Shown: positions 2,471-14,792 of the stretch, piece by piece
How positions within the stretch are numbered: position 1 is the stretch's first letter
Layout: each line of letters begins with the position of its first letter
Origin: Alphaproteobacteria bacterium
GTDB taxonomy: Bacteria; Pseudomonadota; Alphaproteobacteria; Rickettsiales; SXRF01
Direction of reading: 5' to 3'
DNA length: 64,000 bases
Assembly (NCBI GenBank): GCA_025362975.1
Contig: JANYES010000022.1
Location: forward strand, 1-64,000
Position numbers and translations under genes: made by a program
The notes under the pieces: model-generated
What the model was told of the DNA's origin: nothing
The model's input: the letters and a program-made list of their open reading frames with translations, nothing else
Database searches by the model: none

Positions 2471-2562
2471 GTGCACGTCCTACATTTCATGACGGCTTGA
2501 GGGGTGTACCTACTACACCAGAGGGGTGTACGTCGTTCCCATATGGGGTGTATGACGTACAC
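2471..2562. repeat. Dyad array A (GTGTA-N5-TACAC)
   Basis: Four 15-bp units start at 2471, 2504, 2526 and 2548, giving spacings of 33, 22 and 22 bp. Units 2 and 4 are perfect GTGTA-N5-TACAC dyads, unit 1 is GTGCA-N5-TACAT, and unit 3 keeps only the left half (GTGTA-N5-TTCCC). Units are preceded by GG or GGG. The array could be an iteron-type origin or a multi-operator control region. The apparent ORFs here are products of the repeats. Confidence 0.75.
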
Positions 2563-2647
2563 TCTAACTCTTCAGAGAACTCTTCACTTAACTCTAAGAG
2601 ATATATTTCCCCCCAAAATCAAAAATCGGATTATCCAACGCCGCTGC

Positions 2648-2739
2648 ATGAACCATATTCATCTCATACCGACGTCAGGGATGAATATGGTTCAGTCATG
2701 GGATGAACCACGTTCATGCAAGGGATGAATGACGTTCAT
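2648..2739. repeat. Dyad array B (ATGAA-N5-TTCAT)
   Basis: Four 15-bp units start at 2648, 2681, 2703 and 2725, with the same 33, 22, 22 bp phasing as array A. Units 1, 3 and 4 are perfect ATGAA-N5-TTCAT dyads and unit 2 ends TTCAG. The whole array lies 177 bp downstream of array A. The following sequence (AACTCT, GAACTCTTCACT, then A/T-rich) also matches what follows array A, so A and B are diverged duplicates. Units 1 and 2 also form a 14-bp inverted repeat (2650-2663 and 2680-2693). Confidence 0.8.
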
Positions 2740-3026
2740 ACTAACTCTCCATAGAACTCTTCACTGAACCCTAAAATAAATTTTCCCGAAAATTTGATTT
2801 TTTACCAACGCAAAATTGCTTGTTGGGAATCCGATGATGAAAAAAACATCCTTGGACTATCAAATAAAGGGGGGACGTTTTTGCTGATGTTCGGTAGGGA
2901 AAAATCCTAAACGCATTCAGGTTTAATAATTTGATGCCCTAGCGTTGATTTTAGAAACCGGATGGATGTTGTGATGTTCGTTTGCATCCATGATCAGCAT
3001 AAGTTCCTGGTGTTACAAGCATCGAT
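2740..3026. other. AT-rich noncoding island DNA
   Basis: No convincing gene is seen here. The stretch starts with the degraded tail of the array B duplicate and continues as AT-rich DNA without dyads or good start sites. Confidence 0.4.
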
Positions 3027-3098
3027 AATTACACATGGCATCTCCCTGAACACCGGAGGATGTCATTCAGATTACAGCATGGTTTATCTAATGTTTAG
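3027..3098 (+). pseudogene. Scrap of a second integrase C-terminus
   Basis: The reading frame ending at the TAG at 3096-3098 contains HLPEHRRM, matching YLPERRRM near the end of the island integrase. The DNA at 3041-3062 matches 2342-2363 at 20 of 22 positions. No catalytic core precedes it. It is best read as the remains of an older P4-type integrase, so the island may be layered. Confidence 0.4.
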
Positions 3099-3121
3099 GC
3101 GGCAGCCGCGCCAGTTAGAGT

Positions 3122-3202
3122 ACAACCGTTGAGTGCGAAGCGCGAATAAGGAAAACGTAATGTTGGCCAACATTACACATCCTGCCCTCCACTTTACTAC
3201 AA
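3122..3202 (+). repeat. 81-bp inverted repeat, left arm
   Basis: This segment matches the reverse complement of 7539-7619 at 73 of 81 positions with no gaps. Its core is the 20-bp perfect palindrome at 3157-3176 (GTAATGTT-GGCC-AACATTAC). It lies about 170 bp beyond the 3' end of the RM cassette. It could be a transposon-like end, a recombination site or an operator. Confidence 0.85.
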
Positions 3203-3375
3203 TTTATAGAACCGGCATCTTTTTGCACACACTCGTTCTAGGACAGCCCCGAGAATAAAAATGATGTATAGGAAAACGATTCCGGTTCGTAATGGTCGGT
3301 AGTGCAAATTCGTCAATTATTTGATGACGCTGGTGCCGACGATAAATAAACTGAAGGAATGGCGGCGAAGCTTAC

Positions 3376-4131
3376 TCAACCCCTAGAAGCATATTTACGC
3401 AGCGCATCTAAATCAGATTCGATATTCACAATGCCATCTAACACATCACCCAATAAAATCAGATCTTCGCCTTTCCAAGCCGCCTGATTTTCGATGATGC
3501 CCTCCTGTTTGTAATTATCGTTGGCATTTTCTTTGACATCATAGTTACGCACGAATGCCGCAGAGATGGAAGCGTGGTGATTGTTAATCGCATCCACTAA
3601 CATAAACTTATCATCTGCTATTTTTACACGATAATCGAATCTATAGGGCTTATTACTATGTCCTATCATCTCAAATTCTTTATCCACACTGTTGGTGAAT
3701 ATACGCTTTAAGCTGTCATATACACGCACTTTGAGAGCATTGTCTTTTGCAACTTCGTGATGATAAATCAGCTCAGCAGCCCACTGCTGGGTCAAATTCG
3801 CAAGCGTGATGATTGCGGCAGGAATGACATCAACAAACACACCCGATAACGTGAACCGACCATTCACGAAACTGGCATCATAGCATTTTGCCAGTTCCTG
3901 TGCCTTGCTCAACTGTTGATGTGAGATATCGACACATGCATCGTGTATTACTGAAATAGCCTGACCATCGTCAGATAACATGAATGCACCGTTATGACCT
4001 TGCCGGACACTAATAGCCACGAGTTGGCCACCGGGAAAGATGCAATGCGTAGGCACAACAATAGCATCACTACCTTGTCTGATAAGCAAGGCATCCATCA
4101 TTTTTTTCTGAATGATATCAATGTTATTCAT
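3376..4131 (-). CDS. DUF1828/DUF1829-like protein of the RM cassette
   Basis: This 251-residue protein is the last gene of the three-gene cassette and overlaps the preceding gene by four bases (ATGA). The N-terminal part (about 25-110) resembles DUF1828, with AFMLSDDGQAIS. The C-terminal part (about 130-235) resembles DUF1829 and has FDYRVKIADDKFMLVDAI, which could be a beta-strand pair with acidic and lysine residues. I assign the families from memory of such patterns, not from a search. No biochemical role is known to me. Co-translation with the MmeI-like enzyme suggests a linked role in the same defence or modification unit. Confidence 0.75.
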   Translation of the reverse strand: MNNIDIIQKKMMDALLIRQGSDAIVVPTHCIFPGGQLVAISVRQGHNGAFMLSDDGQAISVIHDACVDISHQQLSKAQELAKCYDASFVNGRFTLSGVFVDVIPAAIITLANLTQQWAAELIYHHEVAKDNALKVRVYDSLKRIFTNSVDKEFEMIGHSNKPYRFDYRVKIADDKFMLVDAINNHHASISAAFVRNYDVKENANDNYKQEGIIENQAAWKGEDLILLGDVLDGIVNIESDLDALRKYASRG

Positions 4132-4661
4132 ATCGCCAAAATCATCTGTTTGAATGGTGGTTCCGGTAGCTCTACCGATTCTATAATGGTTTGTCTGAAG
4201 AAATAGTTTACCGCATCCGAGAAATTTTTTACAGGCTCTTCTAGCAAGATTGATGCCGGAGTGTTTTTGTGATGCTTATGTGGTGGAAAACCAAAATTTC
4301 TGTTATTTTTCCATGAGTAATACCGGTTTTGACCAGCAGACATCACCATCCCCTTTAGCTTTTGCGGCATGGCAGCAAGCATCTGGTTGATGTGTTCACC
4401 TCGCGGATTTATCAACATGCGCTCAATCGGCACATCGTCATAGCTGAGAATGAAAGCCGTCTCAATTTCATTCCCAAATTGCCTAGCGTTGCAGATAAAA
4501 ATCAGTTTGCCTGGTATTTCGCCACCCATTTCAATAGGACTTTTGATAGTGGCCTGCTGATCTGATTCAGCTTGCATTTGCCATGTGAAAGCCGCGCTTA
4601 CCAATTTTTTAGGAGCGGCAATGAGTTTATCAATGAGTTCGGCGCGACCAAGGTCTATCAC
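4128..4661 (-). CDS. Hypothetical protein, middle gene of RM cassette
   Basis: I do not recognise this 177-residue soluble protein. It has no signal peptide or membrane segment. A basic, aromatic and histidine-rich stretch lies in the middle (RYYSWKNNRNFGFPPHKHH) and the C-terminus is acidic. ATGA overlaps on both sides (4658-4661 with the MmeI-like gene, 4128-4131 with the DUF1828-like gene) indicate translational coupling. It may be an accessory or regulatory factor of the RM enzyme; this is inference from position only. Confidence 0.75.
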   Translation of the reverse strand: MIDLGRAELIDKLIAAPKKLVSAAFTWQMQAESDQQATIKSPIEMGGEIPGKLIFICNARQFGNEIETAFILSYDDVPIERMLINPRGEHINQMLAAMPQKLKGMVMSAGQNRYYSWKNNRNFGFPPHKHHKNTPASILLEEPVKNFSDAVNYFFRQTIIESVELPEPPFKQMILAI

Positions 4662-7435
4662 ACTTTTCTCCTTTTACGCTTGGATTCTGAAATAGCCACC
4701 AGCGGCGCGGTGAGACGTTGGTATTCCGAAAAGAGGTATTCGATGCGTTCGCGCTCAGAGGCGAAAGCAGCTTTGCGGTAAGCGGCGTCCACTGCTTTAT
4801 CGAGAGCTTGGTGAGCTTTTAGCAGTGCAGGCGACATGGTGAGCGGGTCATACAAATCCGCGAGGGTACTGTGGGGGAAGCCAGCGCGTGCATCCAACAC
4901 TGCCTGCGCCTTTTCCTCAATCGCTTTCACTTGTTCAGACTTTGGCGCGGATGGCCACGGAAAGTTGTTGTAAACAATTGATGCAGAATATTGATAATCA
5001 CTCTTCATACGCCCAGCAGTTTGACGCATCCACCCATTGTGCATTGAAGATGCCATTATTCCAAAATCATATAAACTGGCATTCGGAATGGCCAATGCAC
5101 TGCCACTGATAATTACATCTTTTGAACAAAATCCTATTGGTAAATAATGGCGTCTTTCTGAAGAAACTTTTGGTATTAGCAAATAATCACTGTCAGGTTG
5201 TCGGTTCTCTGAAAAAAGTGATGGATAGTTAGCCCACTGTTTCGTTCTTGCCTTATCACTGCTTAGTCTGACCTCTTTGACTTTATGAATGCGCTCTATA
5301 ACTAATGGCATTGCCCTAAGTTCCTCTGGTTTGGCACCGACAAGCCATAGGCAATATCTATCAATCGAATTTATAAATTCCTCACCCCCCATATACTTCC
5401 TGATCCATTTTTTAGCGAGTGGCTCACGAGACAATAAATCTTTGCATTCCGAAGCTGATAAAATCAGAAAGCCAAAATCAGTAGCTTCACTGCCCTTATT
5501 TATTTTGGGCACATTTGCAATCGGCTGACTGCGCTTTTCTATCAAACATACTGGCGCATCTATCAAGTAAGGATTGATGTTCTTTGCATTTACACGATGT
5601 GGATCAGAAATAATTGTTTCATACTCATACAAATATTTTTGCCCCATATCAGCAGCAGAAAAACCAATAATCACACAATGGACATTGGCAATCTTCATGC
5701 CTTTGGCTTTTTTCTCGTCAATCGTCCATTTGAAGGTGCGGTGAGCAAAATTGATGCAGATGCCATAGCGTGAAAGCATTGGTTGCCACAGCACAGCCAC
5801 TTGCTCGCCCTGCGTGATGGAATTGGTGGAGACAAACGCCACTTTAATATGCGTACCCTGAATGTACTCGGCGGCTTTCCAGTACCACGCGGTGACGTAA
5901 TCAAGCAGACCATCACCTTTTATGTTATGGAAAACCCTCCGCATATCTTCCTTTTGCGCTGGTATTTGCTCTTTCTTACCCACAAACGGCGGGTTGCCAA
6001 GCATGTAGCTGAGTTTATTTGGTGCAATGACGGTTTTCCAATCGGTGGTCAGCGCGTTGCCGTGGGTGATGTTCGCGGATTTCTTCAGTGGTAGGCGCGT
6101 GAGTGCTTGGCCGAAGGATTCCGAGAGCTTCATGTTCATCTGGTGGTCGGTCAGCCACATGGCAGCTTCGGCGATGTGCGCGGGGAATTCTTCAATTTCA
6201 ATGCCGTAAAACTGGTCAACATCCACTTTGGAAAGTGTTTTGACATCCAGCTCAAGCTGGCGTTTTGGGTAGAGTGCTTCCAGCACTTCCAGCTCCAGCA
6301 AACGCAGCTCGCGATATGCCAAAATCAAGAAGTTGCCGCAGCCGCAGGCGGGGTCAAAAAACGTGAGCGTGCCCAACTTCGCATGGAATTTTTCGAGCTG
6401 TGATTTGCGCTGTGTGGATTTGCTATCACGGATTTTCTCAAATTCCTCGCGCAGTTCATCCAAAAATAGCGGATGGATGGTTTTCAGAATATTGCGCTCG
6501 CTGGTGTAATGCGCTCCGCCTTTGCGCTGTTCCTGTGGCAGCATGACCATTTGGAACAACGAGCCGAACAGCGCGGGAGATACCTTGTTCCACTTAAAAT
6601 TGCAGCATTGTAACAGCGCCTGACGCATGGGCGCATCGAAGCTAGGCGTGCGTATCAGGCCAGCAAACAGCTTGCCATTCACATGCGGGAAGCGCGCCAA
6701 ATCCTCATCAAGTGTTTTCTGGCGCTTTTCCGGTGGCGTATCCAAAATCTCAAACAGATGGACGAGGTTCTGGCCTAAATCGCGGCCATCCTCAGCGGTT
6801 TTGTTCTCGACATATTGTAAAAAACTATCGGGTTCAAAAATCCCCGTGTCATCGGCAAATAGACAAAACATCAGGCGCACAAGCAGACGCTCCAAATCCA
6901 CGCCTGTATAGCCACTTTCCTCCAACCGCTCATGTAGATTGCCCATGAGCGTTGCGGCCTCGATATTCACTTCGGGCTGGTCTTTATATTGCTCCAAGTG
7001 GTAGCCAGCGATAAACCCGAAAATGCGAACTTTTTCCGGCAACTCGGATAGCCGGAAATGGTGCTCCTCGCGTGTTTCAAGGTCGATGACTTCAAACGTC
7101 TGAAAATCCGAGAGCAAGATATAGCGTGGTTTTTCCTGTTCTTTCAGGCTCAAAAAATAATCCGTTGCCTGAGTGCGAGCGCTCTCCAGACTCCGGCCAG
7201 CCGACTTTTGCTCGATTAATAATTGCCCCGGCCAGAATAGATCAATGAATCCTTGCGCGTTATTAAGCTTCTTGACTTTTTCCTCATAGATTGCCACGTC
7301 ACGCCGCCTGCGGCCAAACACCTCGAAAAATTCATTATAAAAGGTCTGGGTCTGCCCCTTTTCATAGTGGGCATCCTTCCATTCTTCCGCAAACCGCGCA
7401 GCACGGGCGCGTATCTCATTCCAGCTTAAGGGCAT
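4658..7435 (-). CDS. MmeI-like type IIL restriction-modification enzyme
   Basis: This 925-residue single-chain enzyme matches the MmeI family, which joins an endonuclease, an N6-adenine methyltransferase and a target recognition domain. The nuclease signature D-X9-E-X-K is intact at D65, E75 and K77 (IDLFWPGQLLIEQK). A helical spacer follows, then methyltransferase motif I DPACGCGNFL (about 361-370) and motif IV NPPF (about 481-484); the region after about 620 should hold target recognition. I chose the ATG at 7435 (MPLSWNEI, the usual family start) over upstream in-frame starts to 7480. It overlaps the next gene by ATGA. Family members cut one side of the site about 20 bp away and methylate one strand. 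The target site cannot be read from sequence. Confidence 0.92.
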   Translation of the reverse strand: MPLSWNEIRARAARFAEEWKDAHYEKGQTQTFYNEFFEVFGRRRRDVAIYEEKVKKLNNAQGFIDLFWPGQLLIEQKSAGRSLESARTQATDYFLSLKEQEKPRYILLSDFQTFEVIDLETREEHHFRLSELPEKVRIFGFIAGYHLEQYKDQPEVNIEAATLMGNLHERLEESGYTGVDLERLLVRLMFCLFADDTGIFEPDSFLQYVENKTAEDGRDLGQNLVHLFEILDTPPEKRQKTLDEDLARFPHVNGKLFAGLIRTPSFDAPMRQALLQCCNFKWNKVSPALFGSLFQMVMLPQEQRKGGAHYTSERNILKTIHPLFLDELREEFEKIRDSKSTQRKSQLEKFHAKLGTLTFFDPACGCGNFLILAYRELRLLELEVLEALYPKRQLELDVKTLSKVDVDQFYGIEIEEFPAHIAEAAMWLTDHQMNMKLSESFGQALTRLPLKKSANITHGNALTTDWKTVIAPNKLSYMLGNPPFVGKKEQIPAQKEDMRRVFHNIKGDGLLDYVTAWYWKAAEYIQGTHIKVAFVSTNSITQGEQVAVLWQPMLSRYGICINFAHRTFKWTIDEKKAKGMKIANVHCVIIGFSAADMGQKYLYEYETIISDPHRVNAKNINPYLIDAPVCLIEKRSQPIANVPKINKGSEATDFGFLILSASECKDLLSREPLAKKWIRKYMGGEEFINSIDRYCLWLVGAKPEELRAMPLVIERIHKVKEVRLSSDKARTKQWANYPSLFSENRQPDSDYLLIPKVSSERRHYLPIGFCSKDVIISGSALAIPNASLYDFGIMASSMHNGWMRQTAGRMKSDYQYSASIVYNNFPWPSAPKSEQVKAIEEKAQAVLDARAGFPHSTLADLYDPLTMSPALLKAHQALDKAVDAAYRKAAFASERERIEYLFSEYQRLTAPLVAISESKRKRRKV

Positions 7436-7538
7436 GTAATCACTAACGGTATAAGTTTTATATGAACAGTAGACGACCAAATGTAAAAAGCAACGCCTGA
7501 GCCGCCGTAATTTCTGCTATGGCCTATCTGCCCCATAG

Positions 7539-7619
7539 TTGTAGTGAAGTAGCGGGCAGGATGTGTAATGTTGAGTAACATTACGTTTTTCTTATTCGCG
7601 CTTTGCACTCAACGGTTGT
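7539..7619 (-). repeat. 81-bp inverted repeat, right arm
   Basis: This is the inverted partner of 3122-3202, with 8 mismatches in 81. The palindromic core at 7565-7584 keeps both half-sites as GTAATGTT-GAGT-AACATTAC, while the four central bases differ. The arm lies between the divergent RM operon (starting at 7435) and the AlpA-like gene (7748), so it may also contain operator or promoter elements. Confidence 0.85.
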
Positions 7620-7747
7620 GCCCTGACGGGCGTAGGCTACCGCCTACACAATAAAAAATCTTCTCCCACTCCCCCCATAGCCTAAGGTGAGTTATCCTGA
7701 TCCTTAGATGCACGTTGGAGTCTAGCCCACGCGCTCATTAACTGCCA

Positions 7748-8050
7748 ATGGGAGAATTTATGACCGTCAGCAACACATCTACCCGCATCTTGCGATTGCC
7801 CGATGTTAAAAACCGCACTGGATTGAGCCGCTCGACCATCTACGCGCTGGTAAAGAATGGGAGCTTTCCAAAATATATTAGCTTGGGCGTGCGCAGCGTT
7901 GGCTGGCTGGAAAGCGAGATTGAAGCATGGATAGAAGCCCGTATAAACGCTAGCCGCAGTGGGCAACAGATACGAGGAAAATCTTACGATGTGCTACCAT
8001 CAACCGTATTCATCAACACCATACAGTCAGGTGCGCCACTGTCTGAATAG
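7748..8050 (+). CDS. AlpA-family regulator/excisionase
   Basis: A 100-residue protein with the AlpA (MerR-like HTH) pattern at about residues 14-68: ILRLPDVKNRTGLSRSTIY, then GSFPKYISLGVRSVGWLESEIEAWI. In P4-like elements AlpA activates int or acts in excision. Starts at 7748 or 7760 are both possible. The last 25 residues lie outside the conserved domain. It is divergent from the RM operon and placed at the opposite end of the island from int, a common layout. Confidence 0.9.
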   Translation: MGEFMTVSNTSTRILRLPDVKNRTGLSRSTIYALVKNGSFPKYISLGVRSVGWLESEIEAWIEARINASRSGQQIRGKSYDVLPSTVFINTIQSGAPLSE

Positions 8051-8165: not shown

Positions 8166-8185
8166 TGGCGGTAGATTTGGCGGTA
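8166..8185 (+). repeat. TGGCGGTA octamers, right arm-type sites
   Basis: Two direct copies of TGGCGGTA (8166-8173 and 8178-8185) lie 12 bp apart start to start, about 60 bp inside attR. Three copies lie just inside attL. This suits arm-type binding sites for the integrase. Confidence 0.5.
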
Positions 8186-8245: not shown

Positions 8246-8264
8246 ATCCTATCTCCGCCATTTC
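8246..8264 (+). other. attR
   Basis: ATCCTATCTCCGCCATTTC repeats the tRNA-Pro 3' end ATCCTATCTCC...CCATTT with a small gap. The chromosomal TetR locus follows at once. The stretch 8051-8301 otherwise holds no gene. Confidence 0.6.
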
Positions 8265-14162: not shown

Positions 14163-14444
14163 ATGTTGAAAAATCATTCTACTCGCGTTGTATCAGAAGT
14201 CGTCAAGCAGCTCAGGGATTTGCGCAAAAAGAAGGGCCTTTCCCACGAAGCGCTTGCTGAAAAAGCTGGTGTCAGCCGTCCGGCAGTAAGCCATATCGAA
14301 AGCGGCAAGCGCAAGCCGTCGCTCGTGGTGACGGTAAAGCTATGCGATGCGCTGGAGGTCGACCTTTCGGAGATACTGCGCGAAGTGGAAAAACACTATC
14401 CGCTGCCAGCCAAACCGCAGCTTGAAGCCGCAGTAGAAAAGTAA
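14163..14444 (+). CDS. XRE-family HTH regulator (copy 1)
   Basis: A 93-residue protein made almost entirely of a Cro/C1-type HTH (LRDLRKKKGLSHEALAEKAG, then SRPAVSHIESGKRKPSL). I chose ATG 14163 over an upstream in-frame GTG at 14154. It is followed 81 bp later by a close paralogue, and the two share the recognition helix RPAVSHIESGKRKPSL, so they should bind the same sites. Confidence 0.9.
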   Translation: MLKNHSTRVVSEVVKQLRDLRKKKGLSHEALAEKAGVSRPAVSHIESGKRKPSLVVTVKLCDALEVDLSEILREVEKHYPLPAKPQLEAAVEK

Positions 14445-14525: not shown

Positions 14526-14792
14526 ATGAAAACAAAACATTGTTCAGAGCTGGTCGGCCACGCCGTCAGCCGCATGCGCCAGCTGCGCATGGAACTTGGA
14601 TTATCCCATGAAAAAATCGCCAATCGCGCCGGGATTACACGCCCCGCGGTCAGTCATATTGAAAGCGGCAAGCGCAAGCCGTCGCTGGCGATGGCGGTGA
14701 AGCTGGCCTATGCGCTGGATGTGGAGTTGTCGGAAATCCTGAAATATGCCGAGAGCGTGGGCGCAGCGCAGCCGAGCGAAACTACAGTCTAA
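14526..14792 (+). CDS. XRE-family HTH regulator (copy 2)
   Basis: An 88-residue paralogue of the XRE gene just upstream, with the same layout (MRQLRMELGLSHEKIANRAG, RPAVSHIESGKRKPSL, then ELSEILKYAE). The identical recognition region and divergent ends suggest a tandem duplication. It could form homo- or heterodimers with copy 1. Confidence 0.9.
   Translation: MKTKHCSELVGHAVSRMRQLRMELGLSHEKIANRAGITRPAVSHIESGKRKPSLAMAVKLAYALDVELSEILKYAESVGAAQPSETTV

Follow-up and report, generated by a model that had tools for sequence, protein, structure and literature searches.

The window analysed here, a 64,000-nucleotide stretch of a contig from an alphaproteobacterium of the Rickettsiales, carries directly behind the integrase gene of a 7.2-kb island at tRNA-Pro two arrays of phased dyads, A and B, whose half-sites differ, and the question they raise is what these arrays are, where they come from and what they may do for the island. 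The preliminary description was right in starting the units at 2471, 2504, 2526 and 2548 (array A) and at 2648, 2681, 2703 and 2725 (array B), and in giving both arrays the same 33-22-22 spacing. Its half-site types and dyad positions also hold, but some dyads are imperfect: A 2471 reads GTGCA-N5-TACAT, A 2526 reads GTGTA-N5-TTCCC and B 2681 ends in TTCAG, leaving 36/40 matches to the half-site consensus in array A and 39/40 in array B. The phased-dyad pattern is not due to chance, since a blind search for runs of three or four phased dyads, covering 1.1 Mb of related loci, returned only the window arrays, their homologues in initiator genes and one match in L051, a tandem repeat unrelated to the arrays, and shuffled controls gave 0 matches. 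The features of the island are the following:

989–1065, + strand: tRNA-Pro(TGG), whose 3' end contains the left att core ATCCTATCTCC at 1048–1058
1170–1199: left arm-type repeats TACCGCCA (1170) and TGGCGGTA (1192), presumed arm sites of the integrase
1230–2447, + strand: tyrosine integrase (Arm-DNA-bind_3, Phage_int_M, Phage_integrase)
2471–2562, + strand: array A, four GTGTA-type iteron dyads, phasing 33-22-22
2566–2601, + strand: three 12-bp direct repeats after array A, then an AT-rich tract to about 2640
2648–2739, + strand: array B, four ATGAA-type iteron dyads, phasing 33-22-22
2743–2778, + strand: three 12-bp direct repeats after array B, then an AT-rich tract to about 2815
3085–3205, + strand: putative oriT copy 1, palindrome TGTAATGTTGGCCAACATTACA followed by CATCCTGCCC
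3376–4131, − strand: cargo ORF without family match
4128–4661, − strand: cargo ORF without family match
4658–7480, − strand: MmeI-type (type IIG) restriction enzyme-methyltransferase
7539–7653, − strand: putative oriT copy 2, inverted relative to copy 1 and 85% identical to it
7748–8050, + strand: AlpA-type regulator/excisionase-like gene
8166–8185, + strand: right arm-type repeats TGGCGGTA (8166 and 8178), presumed arm sites
8246–8256, + strand: right att core ATCCTATCTCC, the right end of the island

Outside the island, the window also holds a 102-bp direct repeat whose copies (14277–14378 and 14640–14741) are 78% identical.

DNA searches of relatives matched the array region at G002:C37, G015:C74 and G000:C3, the last in the same genome as the window, and all three matches are mid-gene. 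The ORFs concerned, 334–362 aa long, encode a winged helix (HTH_36) at the N-terminus and a DnaA_N domain at the C-terminus, and they match the PHROG families 'replication initiation protein' and 'replication initiation O-like'. The half-site varies from one initiator gene to another (CTGCA in C3, ATGAA in G002, GTGAA in G015, GTGTA in G020), and initiator genes with matching arrays occur in Trb-type integrative and conjugative elements (ICEs) of the present and a sister genome. Viral contigs scanned for phased GGGRTGNA-N5-TNCAY units yielded 39 contigs with arrays, nearly all of them mid-gene in HTH-containing ORFs; together with two more viral-contig scans this gave 73 array-bearing ORFs, 52 of which matched HTH_36 and 52 phrog_270. 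These family counts are restricted to ORFs of at least 120 aa because the GTGTA pattern without its GGG context matches arrays outside long ORFs too. A protein search of the viral contigs for close relatives of the ICE initiator returned none, the arrays there having been found by the DNA-pattern scans. The occurrence of homologous arrays inside lambda-O-type initiator genes supports the earlier suggestion of a replication origin with iterons, and A and B, each with several phased dyads of a single half-site type, are very probably iteron origin modules of this in-gene kind.

Directly 3' of the last dyad of array A stand the 12-bp repeats AACTCTTCAGAG, AACTCTTCACTT and AACTCTAAGAGA, with repeats of the same kind at the corresponding place after array B, and in both modules a tract that is AT-rich as judged by eye lies beside the last iteron (after 2601 and after 2778), as in in-gene origins. 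Periodic 12-bp repeats 3' of in-gene iterons were also seen in diverse phage initiator genes (viral contigs L162-L200), and over 36 such genes the 48 nt immediately past the iterons had a lag-12 self-match of 0.41 versus 0.26-0.28 in flanking and control stretches. Possibly, these repeats are a general unwinding element of O-type origins. By its sequence, each window array is thus a complete origin module of four iterons, three 12-mers and an AT-rich tract. Whereas the iterons lie within initiator coding sequence in all close relatives, they do not in the window, where readable remnants of the O protein are of linker length only (45 residues at 69% identity in B, weaker in A) and array B holds two in-frame stops. 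The stop in unit 3 of B exists because the half-site there is a perfect ATGAA; the three ICE or element initiator genes carry TGC at this position and so avoid it.

The ori of phage lambda lies in the middle of gene O and has four iterons and an adjoining AT-rich region (PMC7466680). This layout, with dyad iterons and an AT-rich tract placed mid-gene in a winged-helix initiator, is common to lambda, its Stx-phage counterparts and the relatives of A and B; the last differ from lambda O in their C-terminal DnaA_N domain and in that two of them belong to Trb-type ICE gene clusters. The window origin departs further from lambda ori, being separated from its gene and present in two copies of two specificities, with the 12-bp repeats coming after the iterons.

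The preliminary description took A and B for one duplicated module, a view which the alignments contradict. Their likeness is confined to the last 67 bp (alignment score 66), whereas B aligns to the in-gene origin of G002:C37 with a score of 149 (83% identity over 127 bp) and A to the G015 origin with a score of 89; array A also has an odd unit, GTGTACGTCGTTCC, in common with the G020 gene. Tandem duplication of a single module is ruled out by the far greater closeness of B to the G002 origin than to A, and on these comparisons the two modules derive from different parents. Given that the parents differ, with B nearest G002 and A nearest other origins, the change in specificity would be older than the joining of A and B. 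Between B and G002, differences occupy 2/40 half-site positions and 20/88 other positions (p = 0.012), and both half-site differences raise the symmetry of the B dyads. This conservation and gain in symmetry are suggestive, though not proof, of selection on the dyads; the conservation could also come from recent capture.

A possible basis for the two half-site types was found in the initiators themselves. Among 47 non-redundant initiators, a set of diverse sequences filtered at 70% identity against relatedness, one recognition-helix position goes with the iteron type: where the iterons are GTG(A/C)A or ATGAA it is Arg (30/30), and where they are GTGTA it is Lys in 14 of the 16 initiators that could be read (permutation z = 18.5, in a set whose relatedness the filter only reduces). 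The same switch is seen inside one lineage, the G020 initiator (GTGTA) having Lys and its relatives G002, C3 and G015 having Arg. In the initiators of L162-L272 the position forms part of a motif, S-x-R/K-[ST], and may constitute a specificity code. Because the half-site class tracks the Arg/Lys position, A and B probably require different initiators. The earlier proposal of a dimeric protein with a new specificity therefore stands in so far as the half-site class follows the recognition-helix residue of the cognate initiators, but the change was not local to the arrays: specificity appears to have shifted in complete initiator genes, not in the window arrays following a local duplication. No initiator matching A or B was found in the present genome, whose sole O-type initiator, that of the C3 ICE, goes with CTGCA iterons, and the origins should therefore be silent before a helper arrives.

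In the window the att core ATCCTATCTCC has exactly two occurrences, one at each end of the island, which also encodes an integrase. Its Int and AlpA proteins are 53-64% identical to those of the C3 ICE (64% for AlpA), and DNA similarity between island and ICE is restricted to int, alpA, oriT and oriV. An initiator gene is absent from the island. The two ORFs beside the restriction gene have no Pfam match, and nothing was found to link the arrays with the binders proposed earlier (AlpA, an excisionase or a DUF1828 protein). A 38-bp stretch at 3025-3062 matches the 3'-terminal part of the integrase gene (2326-2363) at 82% identity and may be a remnant of a second integrase gene.

On either side of the restriction cassette lies one copy of an inverted 115-bp oriT-like repeat with a 22-bp palindrome followed by CATCCTGCCC, an arrangement that fits the nic consensus of MOBP oriTs. 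Over 66 bp, copy 1 is 94% identical to the oriT region that lies at the NikA-like gene of the G000:C3 ICE (90-94% for the oriT core of island and ICE), and both copies retain the first codons of a NikA-like gene. Relatives of the repeat, that of the C3 ICE included, mostly adjoin NikA-like accessory and/or relaxase genes, for which reason its reading as mere cassette borders was dropped. The oriT-like sequence has nine genome matches, some of them by integrase or helicase-like genes with no evident relaxase (L293, L294). When the relaxase, NikA-like, coupling and Trb proteins of the ICE were searched against the window with tblastn, matches inside the island were confined to short fragments that overlap with the oriT copies, and those outside it were insignificant; relaxase and mating-pair genes are thus lacking from the island. 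On these features the island has predicted sites for transfer (two oriT copies) and for replication (two oriV modules), but encodes neither a relaxase nor an initiator.

This combination sets the island apart from the elements that it most resembles. Its integrase, att sites and predicted oriT copies, together with the lack of a relaxase or mating-pair system, are those of the oriT-only integrative mobilizable elements (iOriT), as defined in the parts of PMC11389934 considered here; to these the island would add initiator-less replication origins, oriV being unmentioned in those parts. With P4-like and PICI satellites it shares an integrase and an AlpA-type regulator, and Pfam searches of its ORFs revealed neither packaging or capsid-remodelling genes nor a primase or initiator of its own. 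SGI1 is likewise a mobilizable island, with helper-dependent replication and an origin of four iteron-like repeats, but it encodes its own RepA for one cognate oriV (PMC7826253), whereas the present island has no initiator and its origins match the initiators of other elements. The C3 ICE of the same genome shares with the island the integrase and AlpA families, the oriT core and a homologous oriV module; unlike the island, it also has a relaxase, a NikA-like protein, a coupling protein, type IV secretion system genes and its own O-type initiator with CTGCA iterons. This ICE (G000:C3:59384-80069; L114, L297), in which a lambda-O-type initiator is found with an S24 repressor, AlpA, Trb-type secretion genes, a relaxase and oriT, has a phage-like replication module inside a conjugative element. 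Further islands with orphan origins were not found: a search of 132 related whole genomes with the general array pattern, allowing up to 2 mismatches, gave hits only in the window, in three initiator genes and at one weak place, and with 1 mismatch the pattern matched this genome alone in 385 genomes sampled from the class. Searched with blastn against plasmids, the array region gave integrase matches only.

The best-supported model is that of a helper-dependent mobilizable island that mimics both the oriT and the oriV of ICEs. That A and B serve as initiator-less oriVs activated in trans by a helper, on an oriT-only mobilizable island, we judge to be an even call. Upon entry of an ICE with a matching initiator, the island would be excised by Int and AlpA, and the initiator would bind the dyads as dimers, four per origin, and melt the adjoining AT-rich tract with its 12-bp repeats, thereby starting replication of the excised circle, which the relaxase and type IV secretion system of the ICE could then transfer, with the mimicked oriT as starting point. 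Having two origins that differ in specificity would let the island use a wider range of helpers. It is plausible, if somewhat less probable, that the tandem origins stem from the initiator genes of two helper lineages with incompatible Arg-type and Lys-type initiators, such that either helper could replicate and transfer the island. Against the helper-dependent reading stands a report for SGI1 that expression of the initiator can make an integrated oriV harmful (PMC7826253). We also count against it that neither a second island with orphan origins nor, in the present genome, a matching initiator came to light, and that recent capture could account for the conservation of B.

A and B could instead be inert relics that no longer have a function: ICEs inserting and being deleted one after another at the same tRNA-Pro would have left behind pieces of two O-type initiator genes. 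The readable in-frame O-linker remnants, the stops of array B, the integrase-like fragment at 3025-3062 and the NikA-like codons kept in the oriT copies would all be expected of such debris. Two independent fragments would then have to share nearly the same functional borders with their dyads near-intact, and the two half-site differences from G002 to have fallen towards symmetry by themselves, next to att sites, int and alpA that look intact; we regard this account as rather unlikely. Phased dyads next to an integrase gene are typical of operators or recombination arm sites, and AlpA, an excisionase or the integrase could be their reader. In the fetched loci, no such arrays were detected near related integrases, on which ground this candidate was rejected; their homologues sit within initiator genes, and the arm-type repeats at the island ends differ in sequence (TGGCGGTA). 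The proposed double operator has no support, and a role as operator or arm sites is highly improbable.

The arrays might also act as decoy origins: by titrating or handcuffing initiators that ICEs or phages bring in, they would protect island and cell beside the MmeI-type restriction enzyme encoded on the same island. Ectopic copies of ori-lambda arrest lambda (PMC4488673), and a replication-inhibition phenotype of lambda requires plasmid-borne iterons, titration or handcuffing having been discussed as its cause (PMC3349717); the latter phenotype, however, depends on oop transcription too. Eight sites on one chromosomal copy would titrate weakly, a decoy would require neither 12-mers nor an AT-rich tract, and the mobilizable context suits replication better, all of which make this explanation improbable.

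The helper-dependent model bears on how islands persist as circles and on whether they can borrow the replication of a helper; SGI1 supplies its own initiator. Mimicry of oriT is an accepted route for islands to ride conjugative elements; for initiator-less mimicry of oriV, we found no description in the open-access literature searched. The array family offers a testable code that relates Arg or Lys in the O-type winged helix to GTG(A/C)A or GTGTA iterons, and orphan in-gene origins could be sought by pattern. If the model is true, such origins would represent a minimal, gene-free means of borrowing helper replication.
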